A DNA stretch of 53,577 nt from an uncultured Bacillota bacterium (GTDB taxonomy: Bacteria > Bacillota > Dethiobacteria > DTU022 > UBA8154): contig CALJJZ010000041.1 in NCBI GenBank assembly GCA_937973635.1, positions 1 to 53,577 on the forward strand, read 5' to 3'. The position numbers were made by a program, and so were the translations under genes. This document shows, piece after piece, positions 7,399 through 51,828 of the stretch (the first letter of the stretch is position 1; each line of letters starts with the position of its first letter). The notes under the pieces were generated by a model, which was given only the letters and a program-made list of their open reading frames with translations, did no database searches and had not been told where the DNA came from.

Positions 7399-7525
7399 TT
7401 TCACATCCCCCTAGTTATCTTGCACTTTTGTTGACAACTACTGCTCAAGAATAGTGCTCTACGCAACAGCCCCTAGATTATGATCAGAACACCACCTCCT
7501 CTTTTGCCTTCCTGCTGTCTAAAGC

Positions 7526-7554
7526 TATATATTGTTAGGGAATTTCATTAACAA
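7526..7554 (-). promoter_or_regulatory. promoter with embedded Fur-like box upstream of the NEAT gene
   Basis: On the minus strand TTGTTA (7554-7549) and TATATA (7531-7526) are separated by exactly 17 bases. The spacer overlaps GTTAATGAAATTCCCTAAC (7534-7552), which matches the 19-base Fur consensus GATAATGATAATCATTATC at 13 of 19 positions. A repressor bound here would cover the spacer and the -35 element. It would give the NEAT-sortase-flavodoxin-MATE genes their own iron-responsive start. Confidence 0.55.
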
Positions 7555-7589
7555 CATTATTTAAAAATATGACCTGGCGCTTTTAAAAA

Positions 7590-8864
7590 CTAGAGCCTGG
7601 CCTGCAAGTTTTTGCGTTGGGCCTGGAGGTGGTTTAAAAGTACCTCCGTTAAATAGACCGCACCGTTAAAGCCCATAAAGGGGGTGTGTGCATAAAACTT
7701 AATCATGTGTGTCAGGTTAGGATTGGCCAGCTGGAGGCGCACAGGCACGTGCGCCCCCAGCTCTAGCAGCACGCCGTCGCCCAGCAGCAGGGAAGGATTA
7801 CTCTCTGCAATAAGCTGGGACATCTGCTGCTCATCGCTGTCAAAGAGGATAATTTCCCGAAGGGGCGCGGGCAGGGCAGCGGCGAAACCTTTTTCTTTAT
7901 GCCTGATCAGGATTTTTTTGATCTCCAGTTTCAGCTCATCCCTAAGAAACGGCAATATACCCAGGGCAAAATCATAGGCGCCGGAAAGTATGGCCGTCAT
8001 ATTCCCATACGTAAAGGCCGTATGGACAAACTTGTGCAGGTGCTTTTGCCCTTTACCTGCCTGATCTTTAAAGAAAAGCTCATTACCTTTGCTTGAACAG
8101 GCAGCTTCAATCTTTTTAACCCACTGGTATGTGCCTTTGATGCCGTAGGGGCTGCCGTAAACAAAGGGCATACCGTATTTTTCCTGCAAGATCTCGGCAC
8201 ATTGGAGGCCCTCGGAACGCAGCACGAGGTTAAATTCCGCCTGGGAGGCCTGCTCGATCTCTTTAATGGAGGTATTGGCTGTAAAAACAGTATGTGCCCT
8301 GTAGCCAAACCCCCCAGACATAATATTTTGGATCTCCTGGAGGTCAGCGGCAAAGTTATAGGCATCGATCGTGCCGCCGATGATGTTATATGTCCCCTTT
8401 AATTTCTCCCGCGGCCCCTGGACAATCTGCCCAGCTAAAACGGTCAGCACCTCTCGGAGGCCCTGAGTATAATCGCCCCGGAACCCGCCCCCTGTAAAGC
8501 AGATAAGCTTTGCCCTTACTTTATCCCGCAACTCCTGGCAAATGCTTTCAATATCGACTCCTACAATTGATGAGATGGAGGAGGCCAGCACAAAGATCAC
8601 CGGAGGGCTATAATGCTCGTCTACCTCCTTTATCGTCTCGGCCAGCCTGCCGCTGTCCCCCATGATGAGGTCTTCTTCTTCCAGGTGAGTAGTATAAAGC
8701 TTTGCCTGCAGTTCCCCGTTGTACTGCGTCAGCCCTTCCAAAGCATAGTGGGTTGTCCCCGCCGGGCCATACTCAATTATATAAGCGTCTTTTATGGTAG
8801 ACAGCGCCCAGATCACGCCCATCCTATCCGAGGGCAAAGGCAAATATTTATAGAGCTGCCGCAT
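7590..8864 (-). CDS. nitrogenase component 1-like subunit without cluster cysteines
   Basis: This is a 424-residue protein of the nitrogenase component 1 superfamily (NifD/NifK/BchN/BchB/CfbD). I chose the ATG at 8864 (AAGGG eight bases upstream), which overlaps the preceding subunit gene by 17 bases; the longer frame to 8984 adds 40 unrelated residues. Conserved structural blocks are IIEYGPAGTTHYALEGL, LASSISSIVGVDIESIC and NIIGGTIDAYNFAADLQEI. All three usual cluster cysteines are replaced: Ser/Ala in the first region, Thr37/Thr38 in GPAGTT where GPxGC is expected, and Ser near residue 96. The Asp that completes the BchNB cluster is also not at that place. It probably pairs with the upstream Cys-bearing subunit in a tetrapyrrole-reductase-like heterotetramer. 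Confidence 0.85.
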   Translation of the reverse strand: MRQLYKYLPLPSDRMGVIWALSTIKDAYIIEYGPAGTTHYALEGLTQYNGELQAKLYTTHLEEEDLIMGDSGRLAETIKEVDEHYSPPVIFVLASSISSIVGVDIESICQELRDKVRAKLICFTGGGFRGDYTQGLREVLTVLAGQIVQGPREKLKGTYNIIGGTIDAYNFAADLQEIQNIMSGGFGYRAHTVFTANTSIKEIEQASQAEFNLVLRSEGLQCAEILQEKYGMPFVYGSPYGIKGTYQWVKKIEAACSSKGNELFFKDQAGKGQKHLHKFVHTAFTYGNMTAILSGAYDFALGILPFLRDELKLEIKKILIRHKEKGFAAALPAPLREIILFDSDEQQMSQLIAESNPSLLLGDGVLLELGAHVPVRLQLANPNLTHMIKFYAHTPFMGFNGAVYLTEVLLNHLQAQRKNLQARL

Positions 8865-10164
8865 GGTGTTCACCCTTTCGCCTGTATTTAAAAACACTGA
8901 TAGCATCAGCCAGCGCCTGCATGACCAGGAGAGGCACTTCAAACCCCAGTTTTTTGGCCACGCCATCCAGGACCACCTGGACAATACCTTTCTCCATTAA
9001 AAGCATGGGGTTTTCGTGTCCGATATAGATATCCAGGGACAGGTGGTCATACAGCTGCCGTAACAGGGCGATATTGGCAACGCGGGAAACGTAGGGGTCA
9101 TGGCCCGTAGCAAGAATTTCCTTTAGGTACTGCTCATCGTCCGCATAGAGGTCCCTTGCCTGGATCAGTACCGGTTCCATCCCCAGAGCAGCCAAAAAGC
9201 CGCTTAACTCAAAGGCTAAAAGGGGCGTATTGGCATAAAGAAACCGCTTGCCCCGCAGCATCCCTTGATACTGCTGCTGTGCTTTTAATACCTGTCCTTT
9301 CATCTCTTTCACTTCCTGCTCCAGGCTCAGCCCCAGCTTTGCCCCAATTTCCCGGTAGCCTCTCTCAATCCGCTCCAAATTCAGGTATTTCTCAAAATAA
9401 ACATAGGGAACCTTGAATTTTTCCTTCATTTTCTGCGCCAGCTTCAAGGACGTAAAATCCGTTACAATATTCAGTGCCGCCGCCGGAGCCGTTTTGAGTA
9501 AATCAATACTGCTGCTGGCAGGAAGGACCATATGGACCTGCACCTCCCGGGTCCGCAGCACCTTTAACAATTCAGTATCTTCCACGCCGCTATAGCGGTG
9601 GCCGAGGAGATTAACCGTCTTTTCTTGGCGCGGCTGTTCCTCCATAAGTTTAAGCATTACCTCCAGCGACCGCTCGATCCCTGGAATGTGGTTGTCGCAC
9701 TTAAAATGCTCTGTTTTAACCAGCAGCAGCTTGGCCTGCACCTGTTCCTGCACTTCACAAATAAGCGCTGCCAGATCCTCGCCAATTACTTCCAGGATAC
9801 AAGTTGTTACCAGCAGAATGGCTTGGGGCCGGTAGCGGCGATCGATTTCCATAACTGCTTCCCTTACTTTTCCCTGGCAACTAAAGACTACGTCGTCCTT
9901 GGTCAAAGCAAAGCTGAGGAAATTATCCTCCAGGCCGGCAAGACTATTTGCTCTGTCAATGCTGAACGATTTTGTGTAGTAGGTGCATTCATCGCTGCCC
10001 ACCACCAGGACAAAGAGGCCCTTGATATAGCCCGCCGTCAGGGCTACGCCGAACAAGGGGCAGTGGGTTCCGGGGAACTGGGCCAAGGAGAGCTGTTTGA
10101 TATCCTTGGCCGTGCTGATTTGTGAGACACGCTTTAATTTTTCAAGCTCTTTAAGTCTAGACAA
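8848..10164 (-). CDS. nitrogenase component 1-like subunit with three cluster cysteines
   Basis: The second component-1-like subunit has 438 residues if the TTG at 10164 is used (GGAGGAG upstream; overlap of eight bases with the ATPase stop). The cysteines sit at about 35 (GTHCPLFG), 60 (GSDECTYY) and 122 (TTCILEVIGED). The spacing of 25 and 62 residues is very close to that of BchN of dark-operative protochlorophyllide reductase (26, 51, 112). The protein is shorter than NifD and I see no equivalent of the NifD FeMo-cofactor ligands. It is therefore expected to hold an Fe-S cluster that passes electrons to a substrate other than dinitrogen. Genomic context (importer, NEAT protein, Fur-like boxes) points to a tetrapyrrole. 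Confidence 0.88.
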   Translation of the reverse strand: MSRLKELEKLKRVSQISTAKDIKQLSLAQFPGTHCPLFGVALTAGYIKGLFVLVVGSDECTYYTKSFSIDRANSLAGLEDNFLSFALTKDDVVFSCQGKVREAVMEIDRRYRPQAILLVTTCILEVIGEDLAALICEVQEQVQAKLLLVKTEHFKCDNHIPGIERSLEVMLKLMEEQPRQEKTVNLLGHRYSGVEDTELLKVLRTREVQVHMVLPASSSIDLLKTAPAAALNIVTDFTSLKLAQKMKEKFKVPYVYFEKYLNLERIERGYREIGAKLGLSLEQEVKEMKGQVLKAQQQYQGMLRGKRFLYANTPLLAFELSGFLAALGMEPVLIQARDLYADDEQYLKEILATGHDPYVSRVANIALLRQLYDHLSLDIYIGHENPMLLMEKGIVQVVLDGVAKKLGFEVPLLVMQALADAISVFKYRRKGEHHAAAL

Positions 10165-10972
10165 AGGTTCCTCTCCTCCTCGCTTCAGTCTGGGCGCAGG
10201 AAATACCAAGGGGATAAAACACGGGCTTGCCTATGCGCCTGTCTAGGGCAACTTCTGCTTCCACATGGTACACATGCCTGAGCATCTCTTTAGTAAGGAC
10301 TTTTTCCGGGGCGCCCTCCGCAAAAATTCGACCCTCTTTAATTACCAGGAGCCTGTGGCTATAACGTGCCGCCTGGTTGAGGTCGTGCAGCACCATAATA
10401 ATGGTAATGCCAAACTCTTTATTTAAACCGCTAATCAACTCCATAACTTCAAGCTGATGGCTTATATCCAGGTAAGTAGTCGGTTCATCCAGTAGCAAAA
10501 CTTCAGTTTTTTGGGCAAGGGCCATGGCAATCCAGGCCCGCTGCCGTTCCCCACCTGATAAACTGTTTACCGTCCTGTGAGAAAGTTTTTCTAAACGGGT
10601 CTGTTTAATCGCCCACCATACTATTTCTTCATCTGCGCTGCTCTGGCACGCATACCACTTACGGTGAGGCAGCCGACCGTACCACACCAGCTCCTCCACG
10701 GTAAAATCGGGTGGGCTGACATTATACTGGGAAAGGGCAGAAAGCTTTTTCGCCACCTCTTTGGTGGGCAATTTATGGATATCATACCCATCCAGGTACA
10801 CCGCCCCACCCTGCTTAGCCATCAACCTAGATAAAACTTTTAATATAGTGGACTTCCCTGAGCCGTTGGGCCCAATTAAAGAGACTATTTCGCCTTTCTC
10901 AAGGGTAAACCCGAAGCCGTCCACCACAATGTTGTTGTCATAGCCAACCTTTAAGTTAGCGGCTTTTATCAT
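10157..10972 (-). CDS. FecE/BtuD/HmuV-type ABC importer ATPase
   Basis: This 271-residue ATPase energises uptake of iron-siderophore, heme or cobalamin. Walker A is GPNGSGKST, the Q-loop follows LSALSQYN, the signature is LSGGERQR, Walker B is VLLLDEPTTYLD, and the switch His is in MVLHDLNQAARYS. These are the features of the FecCD-associated ATPase group. The start overlaps the permease stop by four bases (ATGA), and the stop overlaps the nitrogenase-like gene by eight bases. Importer and reductase genes are therefore translationally interlocked, which argues that they share one substrate. Confidence 0.95.
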   Translation of the reverse strand: MIKAANLKVGYDNNIVVDGFGFTLEKGEIVSLIGPNGSGKSTILKVLSRLMAKQGGAVYLDGYDIHKLPTKEVAKKLSALSQYNVSPPDFTVEELVWYGRLPHRKWYACQSSADEEIVWWAIKQTRLEKLSHRTVNSLSGGERQRAWIAMALAQKTEVLLLDEPTTYLDISHQLEVMELISGLNKEFGITIIMVLHDLNQAARYSHRLLVIKEGRIFAEGAPEKVLTKEMLRHVYHVEAEVALDRRIGKPVFYPLGISCAQTEARRRGTFV

Positions 10973-12003
10973 ACTCTGTATGTCCCTCTCCTTCTTAGCA
11001 AATAAAGAAAAAACGGCCCGCCGATAATCGCCATCAATATTCCCACCGGCAGCTCCACCGGGCTAAAAGCAGCCCGGGCTCCCGTATCGGCCATAACCAG
11101 CAATGCTGCCCCCAGCACGGCGCTGAGCGGCAGCAAAAAGCGGTAATCTGTGCCGACGAGAAGCCTGCTAATATGCGGCACAACCAGTCCCACAAAACCA
11201 ATCAAACCCACCATAGCCACGGAAATGCCCGCCAAAAAAGCTGCAACCAAGGACAATATGACCCTCGCAGCGTTGACGCGTATGCCGAGATTTTTGGCCA
11301 CGTCGTCACCCAATAGCAACACATTAGCCGTGTTGACACAAAGCATGGCAGCGATAAGGCCAATAAGGCTGTATGGCAGCAAGGTCCCTGCCTGGTACCA
11401 GCTCCTGCCAGCTACGGTGCCATTCAGCCACATAATCACATTTTGGATGCGGTCGCTGTACAAAACAGACAACAAGGCCAAGCCCCCCCCCAGAATGGCA
11501 TTTACGGCCACACCGGCCAGGATGATCCTGATCGGGTCAATGCCCCTTTTCCAGGCCAAAACATAAACCATAAATGCGGCCATAATGCCGCCCAAAAACG
11601 CAGCTATGGGAACAAACCTGGTCAGTTGGGGCAGAGTTAACATAATTGTCACTGCGGCCAGACCCGCCCCTGCCGATACGCCGGTAAGGCCGGGATCGGC
11701 CAGGGGGTTGCGCATTACTGCTTGCAGCAGGGCACCGGACATGGCCAGGTTAGCCCCTACCATAATGGCAATCAACGTCCTCGGCAGGCGTATATGCATA
11801 ATTACCGTCCTGGCCGCCGTTGTTTCCGCCGCGGAAACAGCGCCTATTATCTCCGAAACAGCATAGTTAACGCTGCCATAGCGTATGGACAGCAGGCTGA
11901 CTGAAAATAAAAGGCAAAGGCTGCAAAGAAAGATAAAGACGCGTTTGGCTAACCGGGGACCCAATTTTCCTTTGGCTGCTTCTAATTTAGGCATTGCTTT
12001 CAT
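10969..12003 (-). CDS. FecCD/BtuC-type ABC importer permease
   Basis: This 344-residue permease has about ten membrane helices and the FecCD/BtuC hallmarks: RLPRTLIAIMVGANLAMSGALLQAVMRNPLADPGLTGVSAGA near the N-terminus, and LAGISVAMVGLIGFVGLVVPHISRLLVGTDYR in the ATPase-contact region. The family imports iron-siderophores, heme and cobalamin. Its start overlaps the end of the binding-protein gene by 17 bases; an alternative ATG nine bases downstream is possible. The substrate is not readable from the permease itself and is inferred from the adjoining nitrogenase-like and NEAT genes. Confidence 0.95.
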   Translation of the reverse strand: MKAMPKLEAAKGKLGPRLAKRVFIFLCSLCLLFSVSLLSIRYGSVNYAVSEIIGAVSAAETTAARTVIMHIRLPRTLIAIMVGANLAMSGALLQAVMRNPLADPGLTGVSAGAGLAAVTIMLTLPQLTRFVPIAAFLGGIMAAFMVYVLAWKRGIDPIRIILAGVAVNAILGGGLALLSVLYSDRIQNVIMWLNGTVAGRSWYQAGTLLPYSLIGLIAAMLCVNTANVLLLGDDVAKNLGIRVNAARVILSLVAAFLAGISVAMVGLIGFVGLVVPHISRLLVGTDYRFLLPLSAVLGAALLVMADTGARAAFSPVELPVGILMAIIGGPFFLYLLRRRGTYRV

Positions 12004-12997
12004 CCTGTTTGTACATTATTTCTGCCAAGAACATCAAGGCCTCCACCACCTCCGGGCCGGGGTTGGAAAAAAACAGAGCTGAAGGCAGGTCGTACACCCG
12101 GTTGTTTTGCCAGGCAGAAAATGTCTGCCAAAGGGGGTTTTTGAGAAACTCCTCCTCAAAGAGCTTTTGTGTTTCTTCTGGGGTACCATGGGAAATACGC
12201 AGAATGATCTCTGGGTTAAACTCCGCAACCTGCTCCATGCTTATGGGGAGATAAGCAGAGGCACCCTCGGCTAGTCTGATTCCCTCCGTAATGTTTTCCC
12301 CACCCAGCATTTTTACCATACTACCTGCATAAGAAGTCTCCCTGGCCATGAGAAAAGAGCCTCCGGCACCGAAAAGTATGAGTACCCGGGGCGATGGTTT
12401 GCCTTCAGCCAGGCTTAAAGCCGCTTTTTCCTTTGCCTTCATTTCTTTTAGCAATTGAGAAGCCTCCTCTTCTTTGCCAAAAGCCCGGCCAAGCATTTCA
12501 ACGCTGTTGATTGTCCCGGCATAAGACTGATTATCCAGAAAGAAAACGGGGAGCTTATGCTGGGCCATTTTTTCTCCAAGATTGGGCTTAAAGTTTGAAG
12601 AAACAATCACCAAATCCGGATTTAAAGCCGTAATCGCCTCCAGGTCAGGCTCCATGGGAAAGCCTACCGTCGGCAATTCTGCCAGCTTGCCCGGCAGTGG
12701 TTGCATCGTGCGGGTTATACCTACCATTTCAATCCCCAGTCTGTCCATAAGCTTGGCCGTAGCCACGGAGAGAACGATGATACGCTCGGGCATGCTCTCA
12801 CTGACAAAGACGGTACCGTCAGGCTCCACCAGCCTGAATTTCCCCGTCTCCGCCATTACATCCTTATCGCTGCTTTCAAGGTTATAATTCACATCTGGAG
12901 CAGCGTGGGGAGAAACTCCGCAGCCGCCCAGTAATAACGCGGAAAATATAATGATACAAGCAGCAAGCAGATACTTCTTGCTTAACATTTTTAACAT
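11987..12997 (-). CDS. periplasmic-binding lipoprotein of the FecB/BtuF type
   Basis: This substrate-binding lipoprotein has about 336 residues. The start at ATG 12997 has GGGGG upstream and gives the lipoprotein signal MLKMLSKKYLLAACIIIFSA with lipobox LLGGC (Cys26). The mature part is the two-lobe helical-linker fold: MPERIIVLSVATAKLMDRLGIEMVGI, DLEAITALNPDLVIVSSN, and ILFGAGGSFLMARETSYAGSMVKMLGGENI. It delivers a metal chelate to the permease encoded immediately downstream. Heme, a corrinoid or a siderophore all fit the fold; the NEAT/sortase B neighbours favour heme. Confidence 0.9.
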   Translation of the reverse strand: MLKMLSKKYLLAACIIIFSALLLGGCGVSPHAAPDVNYNLESSDKDVMAETGKFRLVEPDGTVFVSESMPERIIVLSVATAKLMDRLGIEMVGITRTMQPLPGKLAELPTVGFPMEPDLEAITALNPDLVIVSSNFKPNLGEKMAQHKLPVFFLDNQSYAGTINSVEMLGRAFGKEEEASQLLKEMKAKEKAALSLAEGKPSPRVLILFGAGGSFLMARETSYAGSMVKMLGGENITEGIRLAEGASAYLPISMEQVAEFNPEIILRISHGTPEETQKLFEEEFLKNPLWQTFSAWQNNRVYDLPSALFFSNPGPEVVEALMFLAEIMYKQDESNA

Positions 12998-13025
12998 TGT
13001 TCCAACCCCCACCAGCTGAGATGAA

Positions 13026-13793
13026 TTAAGGTGCACTGCTTATTCGCTCTTGTTTAATTACTGTTTTTGCCAACTCCATATATATGGCCGTAAGATCGGC
13101 TGCTGGAAAGGCTTCTACTACAGTTTTCCCCTTTTGCTCCGCTTTCTGCACGTAGCTGTCCCGGGGAATGTACTGCACCACAGCTGTATTTATCTCCTCT
13201 GCCACCTTTGCTACTAGCTCCCGCTCACCGTCAACCCCCTTCGCGTTTAAAATTAGCCCCTTTAAAGTTGCATAACCTTTACTTTTGAACTGCTCTAGTG
13301 CTGTAGAAATATTTGTGGCAGCATAAAGGGACATCATCTCTCCTGAAGTTACAACGAAAACATCCTCCGCATACCCTCCCCGCAGCGGCATGGCAAAACC
13401 TCCGCACACTACGTCCCCCAGCACGTCATAAATAACCACATCGGGACGGTATACGGCAAAGGCATTTAATTCCTCCAGCTTTTCAAAGGCGGTGATTATT
13501 CCTCTGCCAGCACAGCCTATGCCTGGTGTGGGGCCTCCCGTTTCCACACAAAGGACATTCTTGTACCCCTGAAAAACGATGTCTTCCAGGGAGAGGGCAT
13601 CCTTCTTGTTTTTGATACTCTCCAGTACAGTGGGCACCTTTTCCCCGTCCCTCAGATTCTTGGTAGAATCAGCTTTGGGGTCACAGCCGATCTGCATAAC
13701 TTTTAGCCCCATGACAGACAAAGCAGCAGAGAGGTTAGCCGCTGTTGTTGACTTGCCGATACCACCTTTGCCATAAATTGCTATTTTGTGCAT
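13026..13793 (-). CDS. NifH/BchL-like iron protein
   Basis: This 255-residue ATP-dependent reductase is the electron donor expected for the two component-1-like subunits. The P-loop [19 protein letters not shown] is at residues 7-25. The two Cys that bridge a [4Fe-4S] cluster between monomers are present: Cys94 in GIGCAGRG and Cys130 in [14 protein letters not shown]. These blocks are essentially the NifH switch regions, including the Arg that is ADP-ribosylated in some NifH proteins. It is shorter than NifH (about 290) because the C-terminal extension is missing. The gene sits between the DUF2325 gene and the importer genes. No nifD, nifK, nifE, nifN or nifB is visible. Confidence 0.92.
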
Positions 13794-40941: not shown

Positions 40942-41265
40942 TTACTTTTTTGCTTTATGCTCTTCCACCTCAATATAACAACATGGGGATTCTGCACAGC
41001 AAGTTGAAGTTTTTCCTTTTCTCAGTTTTCCCATAATGACGCCGTAGGCACAGCCCACACCGGCCCTGACAGACACAGCACCATAAGGGCAGTTTCTGGA
41101 ACAGGCGCCGCACTCCAGACAGGCGTCCCGGTCTGCAATCACACAACGGTCATCTTGCAGAGAAAAAACCTGCTGCGGGCAGACCGTCAGGCAGACGCCG
41201 CAAGCAGTGCACTTCTCCTGGTCCAACTCCAAGGTAACTACATTTTTAAGGTAACGGTATTTCAA
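40942..41265 (-). CDS. hgcB: HgcB ferredoxin of mercury methylation
   Basis: A 107-residue ferredoxin with two [4Fe-4S] motifs: Cys19, 22, 25, 29 (CTACGVCLTVCP) and Cys49, 52, 55, 59 (CLECGACSRNCPYGA). A further Cys72 (VGCAYG) matches a conserved HgcB cysteine, and the C-terminal tail carries two vicinal pairs, Cys89-Cys90 and Cys95-Cys96, where HgcB normally has one. HgcB reduces the corrinoid of HgcA and its C-terminal cysteines are thought to bind Hg(II). It begins 24 bases after the hgcA stop. Confidence 0.93.
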   Translation of the reverse strand: MKYRYLKNVVTLELDQEKCTACGVCLTVCPQQVFSLQDDRCVIADRDACLECGACSRNCPYGAVSVRAGVGCAYGVIMGKLRKGKTSTCCAESPCCYIEVEEHKAKK

Positions 41266-41289
41266 GGTTATCGCCTCCTCTCCAGAGCA

Positions 41290-42471
41290 TTATATCCCTA
41301 AATATGGCCGGTAAAAGAGCCCAGCCACAAAAAATATTACACCTAAGGCGGCAGAAGTAAGTATGGCCGGCAAGGCTACCTTCATCTCCTTCAGCACTCC
41401 CGAAAGGGAGGTATACGTACTAGAGCCAGTATAATTTAAGGCCAGAAACGAAGCAATGGCCGGCAGCAACAAAAGATGGGACAGGGAGAACAGCCATCCG
41501 GGCCCAGGGAAGGTAAAAGCCAGGTACACCAACGTCCAGAGAAGTCCGGCCAGCCAACCTTTCCAGGCAAAGGCACGGCCGGGGATATAAGGCAATAAGG
41601 CAGGCACCAGGACCGTCCCTACTAGCATAGCACCCAGGTACGGGAAAAAATCGTTAAAAGTTTGCCTGGACAGCACTCCTGCCGTAACAGAGCCCAAGGT
41701 AAAGAAGTTGATAAGGAAAAGAACAAAAAGGACGAAAAGAGCAGGCTTAAGCAGTTTAGCCAGTTCCAGAGGGGTCAGAACCAGGCGGTCCCAAAGGTTG
41801 AAACGGACCATGCGCATCTCCGGCGTAGCTTGCAAGCCCGCCGCAAGAAACGGAGGAATATCCGCCGCCCGTACCGGGCCGTAAACTACGCTGAAACCCG
41901 TCCTTTGTTTAACGGCGTGGGCAGCTACGCCGGGAGCGCTCAGCTGAGGCAGAATAAGCGTACGGTGTGTAACCACGCGGTCAAGGCAAGTCTGCTTGAT
42001 ACGATTAACAATTTCTTCTGTACCAAAAGTGCCTTTCCCCGCGGCGCACCAGACATTGACTCCGTCGGTATCGACAACCATAACAAAAAGATCCAGGCCG
42101 GAAAGTTCCCGGCGCAGGCGATCAAAGCTCAGCTTATAGTTGGCAGAAACCAGGATCGGCGCAGCAGGGCCGGGGTTGCCCACGGCATATAAACCGGGAG
42201 GGATACGGTAGTCCGTCCTTCCCAGCCCAAGACGCACCTTTAAGGTCCCGACCATGTCCTGCCAACGCAAAACGGTGCTTATTCGGTACACCGGGCCGAC
42301 CGACGTCTCTACTGTCCCCTCTACCCAGGGAAAAGTTACGGTAAAAGCCGTATTTATATTTACGGCTGCAACCGGGATAGCGCCCGTTAGGTCTTGACTT
42401 ATTTTTTCCCCATCGCAGGCACAAGAAGCTTCGCAACACGAAAGCGATACCCGTTCCTCTTCCTGTTTCAC
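41290..42471 (-). CDS. hgcA: HgcA corrinoid protein of mercury methylation
   Basis: A 393-residue membrane corrinoid protein that transfers a methyl carbanion to Hg(II). The diagnostic cap-helix motif NVWCAAGKGTFGTEEIV is present, with the lower-axial ligand Cys142. The N-terminal corrinoid domain spans about residues 60-220; a C-terminal domain of about five membrane helices follows from residue 245. Start is GTG 42471, with AGGGGG ten bases upstream. The N-terminus is unusual: SCCEASCACDG puts four to five cysteines within ten residues. A perfect 17-bp tandem repeat lies in its promoter region, and hgcB follows directly. Confidence 0.96.
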   Translation of the reverse strand: MKQEEERVSLSCCEASCACDGEKISQDLTGAIPVAAVNINTAFTVTFPWVEGTVETSVGPVYRISTVLRWQDMVGTLKVRLGLGRTDYRIPPGLYAVGNPGPAAPILVSANYKLSFDRLRRELSGLDLFVMVVDTDGVNVWCAAGKGTFGTEEIVNRIKQTCLDRVVTHRTLILPQLSAPGVAAHAVKQRTGFSVVYGPVRAADIPPFLAAGLQATPEMRMVRFNLWDRLVLTPLELAKLLKPALFVLFVLFLINFFTLGSVTAGVLSRQTFNDFFPYLGAMLVGTVLVPALLPYIPGRAFAWKGWLAGLLWTLVYLAFTFPGPGWLFSLSHLLLLPAIASFLALNYTGSSTYTSLSGVLKEMKVALPAILTSAALGVIFFVAGLFYRPYLGI

Positions 42472-42518
42472 TTGCTATTAACCCCCTTCCTGGGATGTTT
42501 TGGAGTTACTTCTTCTCT

Positions 42519-42552
42519 AAATAACTATACCATATAAATAACTATACCATAT
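42519..42552 (-). repeat. perfect tandem 17-bp repeat in the hgcA promoter region
   Basis: AAATAACTATACCATAT (plus-strand reading) occurs twice head-to-tail without a mismatch. On the transcribed strand each unit contains TGGTATAGT, an extended -10-like sequence. It sits about 50-80 bases before the hgcA start codon and could be a duplicated promoter or a regulator site. A similar TGGTATAGT occurs upstream of the HesB-like gene near 53210-53222. Confidence 0.7.
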
Positions 42553-42608
42553 TTCCAGGGATTATTTGCATTAAATTCCTGTTATCCGCAAAAACCGTTA
42601 TAATAATA

Positions 42609-42636
42609 AATCCCCCTGGCTGAAGAACGGGGGATT
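42609..42636 (-). terminator. terminator-like hairpin after the thioredoxin-like gene
   Basis: AATCCCCC and GGGGGATT form an eight-base-pair stem with a 12-base loop; on the minus strand TTTATTATTATAA follows. It lies between the thioredoxin-like stop and the hgcA promoter repeats and probably separates the two transcripts. Confidence 0.65.
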
Positions 42637-42669: not shown

Positions 42670-42924
42670 TCAGGCAATTTTTGCTTCTTCTTTTAACCAG
42701 GCCCTAATCTCATCTTTGCGGGGGATCCTGCCATAGGCTTTAATCTTGTCATTGATCACCAAAACTGGCGTTTCCGGTATATCAAACTTCTTAATTTTGT
42801 TTTCATCCCTAATTGTGGATAGCTCGGTAACAACAGGCAGCCCGGTAACTGCTTTTATCGTTTCTTTTAGCAATTCTTCAGACTTCTCCCTGTCAGACTC
42901 CAGAATGGCTATTCTGATTGACAT
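42670..42924 (-). CDS. thioredoxin-like protein lacking the CXXC motif
   Basis: An 84-residue protein with the small thioredoxin-fold pattern of redox-active disulfide protein 2 (Thioredoxin_3) family: an N-terminal strand MSIRIAILES, a helix, then IKKFDIPETPVLVINDKIKAYGRIPRKDEIRAWL, with the cis-Pro region (TPVLVIN) and the GRIPxKxEI tail clear. The place of CxxC is occupied by SDREKS, and there are no cysteines at all, so it cannot perform thiol-disulfide exchange. The start has GGGAGG upstream. It lies about 200 bases before hgcA on the same strand. Confidence 0.8.
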   Translation of the reverse strand: MSIRIAILESDREKSEELLKETIKAVTGLPVVTELSTIRDENKIKKFDIPETPVLVINDKIKAYGRIPRKDEIRAWLKEEAKIA

Positions 42925-43101
42925 TGGCCTATTACCTCCCTTTGATTGTTTATATGGTATTTATTTATAAAACCCTGCTGCGTATATTAGTTTACCACAG
43001 GCAAAGGCGTTCTTCAAGAGGTTGTCATGGGCTTCCCCACAGGTGCCTACCAGCCCCTTCCCTTACACCTTGCCCTGCCCTTTCAATTTTGGGAGGCCTC
43101 G

Positions 43102-45579: not shown

Positions 45580-48500
45580 TCAGCGGGCGCGCTGGAAATA
45601 ATATTCCACGCCGGCCCTGAAACCTTCGGTAAAGCCCAGCACGTTCTGCGAAGCGTCGGCACTGCCGTCAAAACTGAATTTGACCGGCCCTATTGTTTGT
45701 GAGAGGGAGAGCTTGCCGCCAATGGAACCACCCAGCGCCCCCATGTTAAAGCCAAACCTTTCCGCGAGGCCCAGGGCCAAAGCTTTGGCCGCCTGCAGTA
45801 TCTCCTGGTAGTCGTCATTTTCCAGGGAATATTTAGCTACAGACCAGAGAGAAGTTTCTATCCCTTTAAAAGCCCCTGCGGCATACTGGCCGGCGCTCCT
45901 TACCGTATCCACAAGGGTACTTTCCACAAAGGCTCCTTTTTCCAAAGTGTCCATCACGGCAAGCATTTCCCAGGTTTTGGGGTTAATTTCAAACCAAGCC
46001 CAGCGCCTGCAGCCGTCGATAAGCGACGGCCTGTTCGTGATGAGGACCATATTTGGCGTTTGCGATAGGTGCTCGAGCATTTCAGACGAGGCACCGGCCC
46101 TTTCCAGGGCCAGCCTGGCATCTTGCTCTAGGTACTCCAGGAACACAAGCCCTGTCCCTTCGGGCGCCTGCAGCCAGATCTCTGTCAGGCCGCTACCTTG
46201 GCCAGGCAAAACAGCGGTTTCTAAAGTAGAGGCAAAGATGCCGCTGAGGATGTTAAAAGTTTTGCTCCTGCTTTCTTCTCCGGCGTGCACCTGGTCGTGC
46301 ACAGACAACAGGCTCAAGGAGATCCGCAGTTTTTCCCCTCCTTTATGCGTCACCACCATAACCCGGGGCCTGGTGATTCTGCCGACAGTTAAGCCCAGCT
46401 CCCTGCTCAGGGCACGGTCATGCAGCGTCTGGGCAGAAATAAATTTGGCAATAATGCTCCTGCCGTACCATCTAAGGGCAGAGAGCTCGCCGGGGTCTTT
46501 CGCCATGCTGTATACCTTCTCGGCCGCCTCCTGCAGTTTTCTGCTTGCTGCCGGCGTTAAATCGGGAGCATTAATGCTTGCCGTAATAAAAACATCGTCA
46601 ATTTCCATGCCCTCATCCAACCTCACCAGGTGGACAGCCTTTGTTTGATCAGGAAAGCTGAAGATAAGTTCAAATTTCTTTGACTCAAATCTATCTAACT
46701 CCACGTATTGCTCGCCAAAAACCTCCCCCGCGGGCGTAATTAAATAGATCCGGGCCCTCTTGCCATCCCTGGCTATGCCTATATCCACAGCATCCAGGCT
46801 CAAGAGGTCCAGGGCAAGCTGGCCGTTGTACAGTAAGCGGCTGGCCAGGCCAGGCGCACCCTCTGTCTCCCCGCTGAGGGCCGCAGCAAGCTCGCCCAGC
46901 TGCTCCCTGGATCCTTTCTCTACAGCATAACCATAAACATTTATTTCAAGCCACATTTTATTAGGTGCTTTTTCCAGGTAAGGCGTATAGTCCAGGTATA
47001 CCAGCCGTTTGAGGGCTTCCAGTTCCTCCAGGAAAGGCATTACCAGGATATGGTAATTGTTTTCCTGGTCCACATAAGCTACTGCCGGCAAAGAATCAAG
47101 GGTCATCTCCGTTACACCGGACATCTTAGCCAGTTCTTTGCGTCCCCGCTCCGTTAGCTTAACAACCTTCAATTTAGGCTGGTAGCCCAGCCGGGAAAGG
47201 AGTCCCACGGCCAGGTGGGCATAATCCTGTTCTGTGCCAAAACCCTGGGTCAATACCGCTTCCCGAGCAAAATTATAATTGAACGGCCCGTAGTTGCCCG
47301 GGCTTGGGATGTAGCGCAGGCGTTTCATGACCCTGATCATGGCGTCTACAGAATTTATTTCCCCCATCAGCTGCGCGCCGTAGAAGCTGAGGGTAGGCGG
47401 CGCTATCTCCTCCTTGTCAATCGCCGGCTCTCCCAGGGGAATATGTCCCTGGGTGAGCTGTACGGTTTTTTCAGGATGCTGCAGGCGGTATCTTTCCACG
47501 GCAAGGCCGATGGCCGCGTTTAAATCCCGGGCAAAGAAGTTATCCCCTTCTTGGTAATAAGTTTCTTCGGTCAACAGACCCTGAGGGTAACTGCCGCTCC
47601 TTACCTTTAACTTCAACCCGGTAAAAGCTTCTCCGTATAAATACCATTCATTTCCTGCTTCAGGCAGGAGTTGAAAGACGATGATGCCGCGTCTGCTCGT
47701 GCCGTCATAAACCACGCTCTCATCTGTAAAGCCTAAAATCAGCCGTTCCGTCAGGGCGTCAGGAAGCAGCCTTTCTGAAGCGGCTGTGCTCCTCCCAGGC
47801 CCTTGAGCAAAACTGCCAAGGCCCCCGCTCCTTTCTTGCGCTGACGGATCCTCTCCTTGCACCTCGTCCTGAGAATTTTTCCCAGCCTCAAAGAAAGCAT
47901 CGGAGACAAGGGAAAACAAGCCGGCAATACCCGCTGAGGAAAGGCCGTCTTTTTTGTCATGGATGGTGATATCGGCAATAACACATTCATCAGGGTATCC
48001 AGGGAGGCCACCGTCTATTTTTACCAGGTCATTGACGGTTAGACCCATGAATTCCGAACTGTACTGCACATTTAAGTTGCCCGGCAGCATCTCCCCGGCA
48101 GCCACCGGCACAGCCTTATCCTCACCGCGCAGCTCCACGTAGAGCTCCACCGCGTTTTTTCTCAAGGCCCCGGGGACTTCAAAGAGCCACCTCACCCGGT
48201 TGAAGGAACCGGGATAAAGCATCCTGGGGTGGGCAAACCCTGCAGGTAGCAAACTGGTAGCAGGGCTTACGGGAATATAAAAATCGCCGCTGGCCGTCTT
48301 GAAGCGCAGGGAAAAGCGCTCCAGGGGATCGACCTGCAAAAGGGCCTGCAGCCGGGAAGTAAAGTTGCCTTCCACCACCTTAAAAACAGCGCCCGCACCC
48401 GGCGTAAAGCTCCGATCTATCCCGTCATCCCCCTTATCCTTGCCCGTACCCGGTATTTCCGTCAGTTCGTCCCAGGCAGTGATCTCCAGGGTGAAAGCGT

Positions 48501-51500
48501 CTGTCAACCTGGCAGGGGCTTGTTTGGGCAAAGAGGTAAGGGCAAAGCTCCTAGGCCGCATTTCGCCCACCAGGGGAAGGTCTATATGTCCGTAGTTGAG
48601 ATCGTAAACATGCAAGGACAGCTGCTCCATGGGTATATCGGGCACCAGGAAGACCAGCGTGCCTGCAATGCTTTCCTCGGGCATAACCATGAGGGCATTA
48701 TCGCCAGGAGCGGCAAGGGGCTTCTCCACCAGCCAGGTAGCCAAAGAAGCAGGATAAGCCCCTCCGTTGTTGTAAGTCAGGGAAAAATGAGAGACAAAAT
48801 CGGGAATCAGGTAGGGTATTTTAAGCAATTTAGTTTCCCCCTTGGCGCCACCACCCAGCCAAGCAGAGGGGTGGGAGGAGCCATCGGGATAGACAGTGAC
48901 TTCCTGGGCCTCCAGGATATTTCGCATCTCCATGGTCAGAGCCAAGAAACGGTAATTGTTAGGGGCGGTAACACCGCCCAGTTTTTTCATCAAAACAAGG
49001 GCAGAAGTGCTGATCTCCGCAGCCCCGTTGGCGCCTTTTTTGTTCGCTGCCATACGTTTGGTAATAATCGTATCCTCCGCCGGCACGCCGTAACCAGAAA
49101 TGAACTCTGCCGTATATTTGTCATACTGCCTGAGAATTTTACCGGGCAGGTATCTTATTGTCTCAGCCGCCACTAGCTCGCCGCTTTTTTTAACGGGGGA
49201 GAGCTCCACCAGTTTGCCTGTGGAATACGATTCCCTAGCGCCTGTAGGCGTTGTCTTTTCAATGGCCACAAAGAGGTTGCTAAGCTCGCTGGGAGGAGCA
49301 CTCTTCACCTGGGCAAGGAGCCTGTTGAAGCTCTGGGATAAAAGGGCCGGGTCTTCGCTGACCACATATTCTCCTCCTGACAATGCTGCAGCCAGCCTGA
49401 AATCCTCCGCCTCTTCCTCTACGCCGAGACCCACCCAGAGAACACTAATCTCATCTTTTTTGATCTGGCCGAGAAGTTCGAGGAAAGATTCGTTGCCCGC
49501 CGTCGTCTCCAAGGCCGCATCGGTGATATAGACAAGCACCTTCTTTGTTGAAGGTATTTCTTTCAGGGTCTTGTAGCCGGCCAGCACGGAGCCCGCAATA
49601 TCCGTAGCCCCGCCGGCCTCAAGACGCCCCAGCCCCCTCAGGATCTTCATTTTATCCGTGGTCAGGGCCTGAACGATCTTAGTCTCATCATTAAACTCCG
49701 CCAGCTGCAGCAGCACATCAGGGGGCAGCTCCAGGACAAAGTGGCGTAGCAGTTTTTTTACGTTGTAGATTCTGCTACCATAGGTCTCACTGTAATCATT
49801 CATAGAGCCGCTGGTATCAATGACAAAGGAAACCACGGGGACGTCACCGGGGGAAGCTTCCAACGGTCGGACATAGGTTGCTTCATAAGTGTTGCCCAAG
49901 TTTTCGTTGATGGCCGCGAAAACCTGCTGCAGCGCCGCAGCGTCGGTTGCACTGAAATACCGGCCGCCTGATACCTTAGCCAGGCTCTCCAGGGTAGCCC
50001 CGTCATGCTCCCTGCCAAACCCAATGGTAAAAAGTGGAACAGCTGCCTCCTGCACCAGCTGCAGGGTCTCGGCCAGAGTCAGGCCACCGCTGTATTTGAC
50101 GTCGTTTTCTCCGTCCGTAAAGACAACGAGGGTGGGCCGGTCTTCCCCGGCGAGGAGGGCAAGTCCCATTTTAATCGCTTCATAGAGGGCCGTATCCCCG
50201 CCAACTTTAAGCGATGCTAAATTTCTTACCGCCTCTGCTTTGGTAGTGCCCTTGAGCTCCCTGGGTATATCATCAAAATCAACGACCCTGATCAGTGCCT
50301 CTTCAGGCAGCCCTCTGATGAACTGCTCCGCTGCTTTTAAGGTGGCCTGCATCTGCCCCCGCATGGAACCAGACGAGTCCAATAAAAGGACGACACTTGG
50401 GGGCGTTTGCAGCGGCGCCACACTGAGCAGCTTTACAGGCACGCCTCCTTCCATCACCATGGTATTGCCGGTGTCGGGTAAAATTTCCCTCGTGCTTCTG
50501 TCCAAAAGCGTAAAATTAAAGCTAACTTGGTTTTTGGAGGTATCTTCTTTCAGCGTGCCGATGCGGATACCCCTCTCGTTATAGCCGTCTGCGCTAGCCC
50601 TCATGGTGTTAGCCAGAAAAAAGGGCACCTCCACTTCCGTCATTTCGCCAGAATGGACCGGCACCATAAGGGTCTCATAGTTGCTTACTAAAGCATCGCC
50701 CCGGGGATAGATCTTGACATCCCAGAGTCCCGCTGGGACAAACATAATAAAGTCCCCGTCAGGCGTGCGGTCCAGGTAAAAGTCTTCATAGGAAAATTCT
50801 GGATGTTCGATGCTCAGGCAGGCATTGCCGCCCAGGGGAAAGGCTTCAATACCCGCCACAAATTCAGAGCTGACCTTAATGGCGCCCAGGGGTTCCCCGT
50901 ATTTTATCTGCGGCAAAGAGCCGGTTTTTAAGAGGGTAATTTTTATTTCCTTTGTGGTAGCAGGATCATACCAGCTAACTTCCCAGTTGCTAAACCCCGG
51001 ATCGTACATAATGCTGTCATAGTAGAAGGAAGTGCCCATGGCGTCAAAAACCGTATCCCTGGTCCGGTAGCTGCGCCTGTAGGCCCCAAAATTATTCTCT
51101 GTTTTAATTTCAAAGCTCACCTGGCCCCCATCATATTCAAGGTGGATAGACTGGTACTCGTCTCCGGGATTATAAGAGGCAAAACGGACAACATTTTCGT
51201 CATAATCCTCAGTATGGATCACAAGGGTATCGCCAACCTTTAACTCGTCCTGCCTGACGATATTCAACATAATTTTGTCATAAGCAATTGCCGCCTCCGC
51301 CCACCAGCGCAGGCCGTCATCGCCGTTAAGGACAAAGACAATACTGTCTGCGGCATAACCCATGATCGTGCCGTTTTTGAATCTAATGTAATGCTCGATG
51401 TCGTAGACAAATTGATGGTTTTCTTCCATGGTTTTCCCAGAATCAAAGGGCACATGCAACAACCATGCATCGCCATACACTTCCCTCTGCGTAAGGGCAT

Positions 51501-51828
51501 TCTGCCTGTCGGCATAGGTATAGGTATAATAACTTCTGGGGCGCAGTTCAATATAAGAGTAATTGCTTTCGGCACCCATGGGGTTGACAAAGGGCATGGG
51601 ATTAACCCAGGGAGGGAAATCGCCGTTTTCGGCAAAAAACCAGACCTGAGGGAAATCGTCGGGGGTAAAGACATAAACATCTTCAGACTCATCGCTCAGG
51701 GGAGCGCCAGCGGCAGGATCGCTTTCCTTTCCGCCTTCTTTGAGCAAAACAACGGCTGTTACGAGAGCCGCCAGAAACAACACAACCATACCTGCCAGCA
51801 TAATTTTTTTCCTTGTCAACCCGGCCAC
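45580..51828 (-). CDS. giant membrane-anchored protein with two VWA domains
   Basis: A 2082-residue protein. One membrane helix at residues 9-29 (IMLAGMVVLFLAALVTAVVLL) after a basic N-terminus makes it a signal-anchored extracellular protein; no LPxTG or SLH motif ends it. Two von Willebrand factor A domains have complete MIDAS motifs: DSSGSM near residue 483 with TDGEND, and DTSGSM near 670 with ITDAA. Around residues 1500-1620, GTEQDYAHLAVGLLSRLGYQPK and YHILVMP resemble a transglutaminase-like core, but the nucleophilic Cys is replaced. The rest is mostly beta-rich. No homologue of known function is recognised; adhesion or protein-protein scaffolding at the cell surface is likely. Confidence 0.85.
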   Translation of the reverse strand: MAGLTRKKIMLAGMVVLFLAALVTAVVLLKEGGKESDPAAGAPLSDESEDVYVFTPDDFPQVWFFAENGDFPPWVNPMPFVNPMGAESNYSYIELRPRSYYTYTYADRQNALTQREVYGDAWLLHVPFDSGKTMEENHQFVYDIEHYIRFKNGTIMGYAADSIVFVLNGDDGLRWWAEAAIAYDKIMLNIVRQDELKVGDTLVIHTEDYDENVVRFASYNPGDEYQSIHLEYDGGQVSFEIKTENNFGAYRRSYRTRDTVFDAMGTSFYYDSIMYDPGFSNWEVSWYDPATTKEIKITLLKTGSLPQIKYGEPLGAIKVSSEFVAGIEAFPLGGNACLSIEHPEFSYEDFYLDRTPDGDFIMFVPAGLWDVKIYPRGDALVSNYETLMVPVHSGEMTEVEVPFFLANTMRASADGYNERGIRIGTLKEDTSKNQVSFNFTLLDRSTREILPDTGNTMVMEGGVPVKLLSVAPLQTPPSVVLLLDSSGSMRGQMQATLKAAEQFIRGLPEEALIRVVDFDDIPRELKGTTKAEAVRNLASLKVGGDTALYEAIKMGLALLAGEDRPTLVVFTDGENDVKYSGGLTLAETLQLVQEAAVPLFTIGFGREHDGATLESLAKVSGGRYFSATDAAALQQVFAAINENLGNTYEATYVRPLEASPGDVPVVSFVIDTSGSMNDYSETYGSRIYNVKKLLRHFVLELPPDVLLQLAEFNDETKIVQALTTDKMKILRGLGRLEAGGATDIAGSVLAGYKTLKEIPSTKKVLVYITDAALETTAGNESFLELLGQIKKDEISVLWVGLGVEEEAEDFRLAAALSGGEYVVSEDPALLSQSFNRLLAQVKSAPPSELSNLFVAIEKTTPTGARESYSTGKLVELSPVKKSGELVAAETIRYLPGKILRQYDKYTAEFISGYGVPAEDTIITKRMAANKKGANGAAEISTSALVLMKKLGGVTAPNNYRFLALTMEMRNILEAQEVTVYPDGSSHPSAWLGGGAKGETKLLKIPYLIPDFVSHFSLTYNNGGAYPASLATWLVEKPLAAPGDNALMVMPEESIAGTLVFLVPDIPMEQLSLHVYDLNYGHIDLPLVGEMRPRSFALTSLPKQAPARLTDAFTLEITAWDELTEIPGTGKDKGDDGIDRSFTPGAGAVFKVVEGNFTSRLQALLQVDPLERFSLRFKTASGDFYIPVSPATSLLPAGFAHPRMLYPGSFNRVRWLFEVPGALRKNAVELYVELRGEDKAVPVAAGEMLPGNLNVQYSSEFMGLTVNDLVKIDGGLPGYPDECVIADITIHDKKDGLSSAGIAGLFSLVSDAFFEAGKNSQDEVQGEDPSAQERSGGLGSFAQGPGRSTAASERLLPDALTERLILGFTDESVVYDGTSRRGIIVFQLLPEAGNEWYLYGEAFTGLKLKVRSGSYPQGLLTEETYYQEGDNFFARDLNAAIGLAVERYRLQHPEKTVQLTQGHIPLGEPAIDKEEIAPPTLSFYGAQLMGEINSVDAMIRVMKRLRYIPSPGNYGPFNYNFAREAVLTQGFGTEQDYAHLAVGLLSRLGYQPKLKVVKLTERGRKELAKMSGVTEMTLDSLPAVAYVDQENNYHILVMPFLEELEALKRLVYLDYTPYLEKAPNKMWLEINVYGYAVEKGSREQLGELAAALSGETEGAPGLASRLLYNGQLALDLLSLDAVDIGIARDGKRARIYLITPAGEVFGEQYVELDRFESKKFELIFSFPDQTKAVHLVRLDEGMEIDDVFITASINAPDLTPAASRKLQEAAEKVYSMAKDPGELSALRWYGRSIIAKFISAQTLHDRALSRELGLTVGRITRPRVMVVTHKGGEKLRISLSLLSVHDQVHAGEESRSKTFNILSGIFASTLETAVLPGQGSGLTEIWLQAPEGTGLVFLEYLEQDARLALERAGASSEMLEHLSQTPNMVLITNRPSLIDGCRRWAWFEINPKTWEMLAVMDTLEKGAFVESTLVDTVRSAGQYAAGAFKGIETSLWSVAKYSLENDDYQEILQAAKALALGLAERFGFNMGALGGSIGGKLSLSQTIGPVKFSFDGSADASQNVLGFTEGFRAGVEYYFQRAR

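Follow-up and report, generated by a model that had tools for sequence, protein, structure and literature searches.

The window analyzed here is a stretch of 53,577 nucleotides from an uncultured Bacillota bacterium. On its minus strand it carries two adjacent genes, hgcA and hgcB, which the original prediction had read as mercury methylation genes at 40942-42471, and these coordinates are exact. The hgcA gene (41290..42471) runs from a GTG at 42471 to a stop at 41290, has an AGGGGG about 10 nt 5' of its start, and encodes a membrane corrinoid protein of 393 aa. After a gap of 24 nt between the hgcA stop and the next start follows hgcB (40942..41265), which runs from a TTG at 41265 to a stop at 40942, is preceded by an AGGAGG at 8 nt, and encodes a dicluster ferredoxin of 107 aa. 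In profile searches both proteins scored above the cut-offs of the NCBIfam equivalog models: 443.2 bits for HgcA against NF040863 (cut-off 275, E 5e-133) and 114.3 bits for HgcB against NF040864 (cut-off 99, E 2e-33). These E-values, together with the recurrence of the same features in relatives, argue that the HgcAB features are not due to chance.

The domain composition of HgcA agrees with this assignment. The protein matches Pfam CdhD with 45 bits and contains the cap helix N(V/I)WCA(A/G)GK in the form NVWCAAGK (42034..42057, minus strand), including the cobalt-ligating cysteine, Cys142; the WCAAGK part is invariant across 19 aligned members of the order, and the role of the cap-helix cysteine in corrinoid ligation has been described (PMC7305189, PMC11588087). 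An AlphaFold model, for which sequences of 19 order members were used, has a mean pLDDT of 79 and shows the corrinoid domain together with five long helices at the C-terminal end (residues 232-258, 263-294, 300-319, 325-344 and 365-390), which make up the membrane domain encoded at 41299..41775. When this model was compared with the PDB using Foldseek, the published HgcAB model 9a0b (9a0b_A) ranked at the top (E 3e-20, 43% identity), followed by CFeSP structures; the match to 2ycl (E 1e-7, 1.7 A over 126 columns) indicates a CFeSP-like corrinoid-binding fold. HgcB carries two CxxCxxCxxxCP motifs (C19/22/25/29 and C49/52/55/59), the strictly conserved cysteine of GVGC (Cys72), and a C-terminal tail, CCAESPCC (residues 89-96, 40978..41001), with two vicinal pairs at C89/90 and C95/96. 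The cap helix, the membrane domain, the two 4Fe-4S motifs and the vicinal cysteines were thus all found as originally predicted.

In strain ND132, methylation by HgcAB depends on HgcA Cys93, HgcB Cys73 and one or both of Cys94/95 (PMC7305189, PMC11588087). Their equivalents in the window are HgcA Cys142, HgcB Cys72 and the tail cysteines 89, 90, 95 and 96, so every residue known to be essential for methylation is kept. Based on the curated equivalog models, the fold match to 9a0b and CFeSP, and the retention of all mutationally essential residues, we are highly confident that the locus is an intact, genuine two-gene hgcAB operon. It can fairly be predicted from these sequences, as had been proposed, that the organism produces methylmercury. 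We found no dsrA in the genome, and the organism, a predicted methylator, is thus not a sulfate reducer. With its Wood-Ljungdahl genes, it is a further predicted methylmercury producer that lacks dsrA. The label "Firmicute" also holds, since named members of the order with identical HgcA are titled Syntrophomonadaceae or Bacillota.

HgcA begins with a Cys-rich leader that bears the motif SCCEASCACDG (residues 11-21, 42409..42441), and residues 1-43 are predicted to be disordered (pLDDT about 30 in the AlphaFold model). The original prediction was right that this motif and the two vicinal pairs in the HgcB tail exist, yet its view of them as oddities of the lineage had to be rejected, because both are the majority state. 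Among 116 distinct HgcA sequences, which span many phyla, 90 have a leader with either CC (77) or a cysteine next to or near an in-frame TGA, read as Sec (13); the rest comprise three leaders with two separated cysteines, seven with one, 15 with none and one left without a class, and all of these counts are approximate since several start sites were set by eye. The cysteine is near, rather than next to, the TGA in two loci (L100 and L138). As for HgcB, four cysteines are present in 68 of 103 tails, and in 13 loci, two of which are copies of the window locus itself, the tail has two CC pairs; up to four extra HgcB tail cysteines are already on record (Cooper et al.).

Both the CC and the C-TGA forms of the leader are present in each of two deep HgcA clades. 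Parsimony on the HgcA tree, a quick tree with many weak forks, gave at least nine changes between two or more cysteines and fewer, and at least five between CC and C-TGA. The Sec forms themselves have been published: in PMC13188914, which cites Haft and Gwadz 2023, HgcA (CU) and HgcB (GVGU) are listed as selenoproteins. The Sec site of HgcA falls on the leader CC pair that is also present in the window, and the window proteins have cysteine at all of the listed sites. This exchange of Cys and Sec speaks for a function of the leader pair, and the leader may have the same Hg(II)-capturing role as is proposed for the HgcB tail. It is dispensable for the chemistry itself, as the leaderless HgcA of ND132 works and HgcA of the Desulfosporosinus type also has no Cys-rich leader.

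In nine further loci (L017, L076, L080, L091, L108 and L132-L135), of which L017 belongs to the same family as the window organism, an in-frame TGA takes the place of the codon for the strictly conserved HgcB cysteine (GVGU). Four of them (L076, L091, L132 and L133) combine GVGU with C-TGA in the HgcA leader, so that both proteins appear to be selenoproteins. We do not claim a complementarity in which a Cys-rich HgcA leader is present wherever HgcB has no CC pair in its tail: the leader contains at least two Cys or Sec residues in 12 of the 13 systems of this type, with a Fisher p of 0.30 and related rows.

The region upstream of hgcA contains a tandem direct repeat, ATATGGTATAGTTATTTA (42518..42552, minus strand), which is a candidate control element; its two copies are the only ones in the whole genome. 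A part of it, TTTATATGGTAT, is found again 5' of the neighboring thioredoxin-like gene at 42949-42960, and once elsewhere in the genome. We considered the ATATGGTATAG repeat as a counterpart of the operator found in relatives and rejected it, as even its closest match to the palindrome is within what shuffled sequences give (p 0.4). Further upstream, a hairpin followed by a U-rich run (42605..42636, minus strand; MFE -13.3 kcal/mol, z -2.3) is a probable terminator of the upstream gene, which would make hgcAB a transcription unit of its own; the terminator scan missed this hairpin, the loop of which is longer than 8. No sigma-70-like promoter was found upstream of hgcA in the window.

The gene adjoining hgcA (42670..42924, minus strand) encodes a thioredoxin-fold protein of the MTH895/ArsE type (Pfam Thioredoxin_3, 43 bits) that has no CxxC and no cysteine at all. 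It scores 45.3 bits against TIGR00412, below the cut-off of 62, and thus falls outside MTH895/ArsE on both score and CxxC, with the ars-linked ArsE as its closest family. We regard it as a neighbor of hgcA and claim no functional link to hgcAB. In a comparison with 98 related loci, no syntenic counterpart was found for the window neighbors (an M24 peptidase, a metallo-beta-lactamase and this thioredoxin-like protein). Weak matches there were limited to the thioredoxin-like protein in L083 and in the Desulfosporosinus locus L061, where a similar gene lies directly 3' of hgcB (7449-7628), and to the metallo-beta-lactamase in L067.

Two other loci in the window were observed. One (7590-13793, minus strand) is a nitrogenase-like cluster that encodes a NifH/CfbC-like protein, two NifD/E-like proteins and, between these, a FecBCD-type ABC transporter, with a FeoB-like gene nearby. 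None of its nitrogenase-like proteins scored above the cut-off in the NCBIfam models for nitrogenase, DPOR or F430, and the cluster is possibly an uncharacterized metal-cofactor or tetrapyrrole reductase system. The other (45580-51828, minus strand) encodes a single protein of 2082 aa that has a hydrophobic stretch at its N-terminus and two stretches resembling von Willebrand A (DxSGSM).

HgcA above the cut-off was found in 20 of the 71 genomes of the order and in 30 of the 398 genomes sampled from the phylum. Across the order its similarity does not track that of CFeSP. The congener G063 shares 86% identity with the window organism in CFeSP and only 58% in HgcA, and it carries hgcAB at another place in the genome; the genes that flank the pair in the window lie elsewhere in congeners, in which no clean empty site for hgcAB was found. 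A vertically inherited locus was therefore rejected, and it follows from the identities and the different location that the pair moves horizontally, as is already known for hgcAB (PMC7438021). This patchy and mobile distribution within the order matters for the prediction of methylation from community data.

In most members of the order that carry hgcA, a MarR-type gene lies directly 5' of it (among others in L140-L142, L144, L148, L149 and L151-L154), and a Pfam MarR domain was recognized in 12 of 12. The motif CCGxTxxQCH is invariant in the aligned set. This Cys-rich MarR occurs in 12 of the 20 hgcA-positive genomes and in none of the 51 others of the order (Fisher p 1e-8); in those 12 genomes it is always encoded just 5' of hgcA, mostly behind a palindrome, TTGTATAATACAA. 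A palindrome near AGTTGTATAATACAACT lies upstream in 14 of 20 loci, where it has 0-3 mismatches, compared with four or more in shuffled sequences, a count that is descriptive because the motif was derived from the same sequences that were scored. A MarR gene 5' of hgcA had been noted earlier in Dethiobacter and Geobacter daltonii (PMC10349881). Both elements are absent from the window: the MarR gene from the genome of the organism (E<=1e-20) and the palindrome from the region 5' of hgcA.

Strict specificity of this MarR subfamily for hgcAB holds within the order and fails in the phylum, where the subfamily is present in 49 of 398 genomes. In six hgcA-positive genomes (G029, G371, G322, G300, G433 and G176) it is encoded on the hgcA contig just 5' of hgcA, and in five hgcA-negative Bacillota loci (L188, L190, L191, L193 and L195) it precedes arsM. 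These arsM genes score 303-326 bits against an arsenite methyltransferase cut-off of 263, and the ArsM N-termini in the MarR-arsM loci carry a Cys-rich leader, for example SSCCCGTSCC. No arsM was seen beside the MarR gene in L187 and L192. In L184 and L172 an arsM-like frame 3' of the MarR gene looks interrupted and could be a Sec-containing ArsM or a pseudogene. We found no description of a MarR subfamily shared by arsM and hgcAB in the part of the literature that we searched.

This Cys-rich MarR protein is a candidate shared regulator of mercury and arsenic methylation. We tentatively propose, at somewhat less than even odds, that the HgcA leader is a metal-capture module shared with the unrelated ArsM, that the MarR protein, as a cysteine-sensing regulator with an operator near TTGTATAATACAA, is a switch common to arsM and hgcAB in Bacillota, and that hgcAB in the window has escaped this switch and is otherwise controlled. 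The leader module and the MarR switch are leads drawn from relatives of the window organism, not from the window. Both the role of the Cys/Sec leader and the control of arsenic and mercury methylation by one MarR protein are testable, and the latter bears on why bacteria keep hgcAB.

We weighed three other readings of the locus. HgcA might be a corrinoid paralog, either CFeSP gamma or a member of the HgcAB-like fusion family, that methylates a different acceptor. Its corrinoid domain is indeed homologous to CFeSP, as seen in the CdhD and 2ycl matches, and the HgcAB-like fusion model NF043039 also recognizes it with 199.2 bits. However, that score is below the cut-off of 285 and the window has two separate genes; the CFeSP-gamma model NF003195 gives 69.4 bits against a cut-off of 306, whereas the HgcA equivalog model is exceeded by a wide margin (443 vs 275). 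The genome also encodes a separate CFeSP gamma together with acetyl-CoA synthase on contig C17 (G000:C17). Placement of HgcA among CFeSP, which the original prediction had named as the outcome that would count against it, was thus not what we found, and we consider this reading extremely improbable and refuted at the sequence level.

If the genes are genuine hgcAB, as we hold, their physiological substrate might still not be mercury, or not mercury only, with an arsenic compound or another soft metal(loid) in its place and Hg methylation as a side activity. Arsenic-type control is common around hgcAB in relatives: ArsR is encoded at position -1 or -2 in 28 loci and Acr3-like neighbors occur in 16. 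The MarR subfamily is common to hgcAB and arsM, Cys-rich leaders are found on both ArsM and HgcA, and PMC10349881 cites a connection of ArsR and arsenic with the transcription of hgcAB in ND132. Regulation by arsenic does not define the substrate, however, and methylation by hgcAB has been demonstrated for Hg alone, so that we regard a different substrate as unlikely. Decay or silencing of the window copy after loss of the relatives' regulator would explain why the MarR gene, the palindrome and a consensus promoter are all missing, but both full-length frames are open, no functional residue is missing and the ribosome-binding sites are good; a unique tandem repeat is present upstream, and the MarR gene is likewise missing from seven further hgcA-positive genomes of the order. 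A decaying copy is therefore very unlikely.

The activity of the pair, its methyl donor and any function of the leader are inferred, with characterized HgcAB as the guide to the mechanism. HgcB would reduce the HgcA-bound corrinoid with two low-potential electrons, and the resulting Co(I) would accept a methyl cation from S-adenosylmethionine, which is assumed to be the donor here by analogy with ND132 HgcAB, for which SAM and not methyl-THF is the donor in vitro (PMC11588087). Methyl-Co(III), ligated by the Cys142 thiolate, would then pass its methyl group to thiol-held Hg(II) to yield methylmercury. The flexible CCAESPCC tail of HgcB may capture Hg(II) and pass it, or the product, along via Cys72; more speculatively, the disordered SCCEASCAC leader could take the same part in capture and hand-over.

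Comparison with known systems places the window pair close to characterized HgcAB. CFeSP gamma (AcsC) has a homologous corrinoid-binding domain but not the HgcA-type membrane domain. Relatives in the order (G063, G061, G059, G024 and others, with Syntrophomonadaceae MAGs CSSed16x) share 47-58% HgcA identity and four tail cysteines with the window, as well as, in most of them, the CC-type leader; unlike the window, most have the palindrome and a MarR gene overlapping or just 5' of hgcA. The annotation as hgcAB is correct and biologically relevant, and this kind of system is already known. With HgcAB of Pseudodesulfovibrio (Desulfovibrio) mercurii ND132 the window pair has in common the cap-helix cysteine, the five-helix membrane domain, the two 4Fe-4S motifs, the GVGC cysteine and the cysteines at the end of HgcB (PMC7305189). 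It differs in having about 49 extra N-terminal HgcA residues with the Cys-rich motif, where ND132 has about 12 residues before the conserved domain and its cap-helix cysteine at 93 instead of 142, and in four tail cysteines compared with two.
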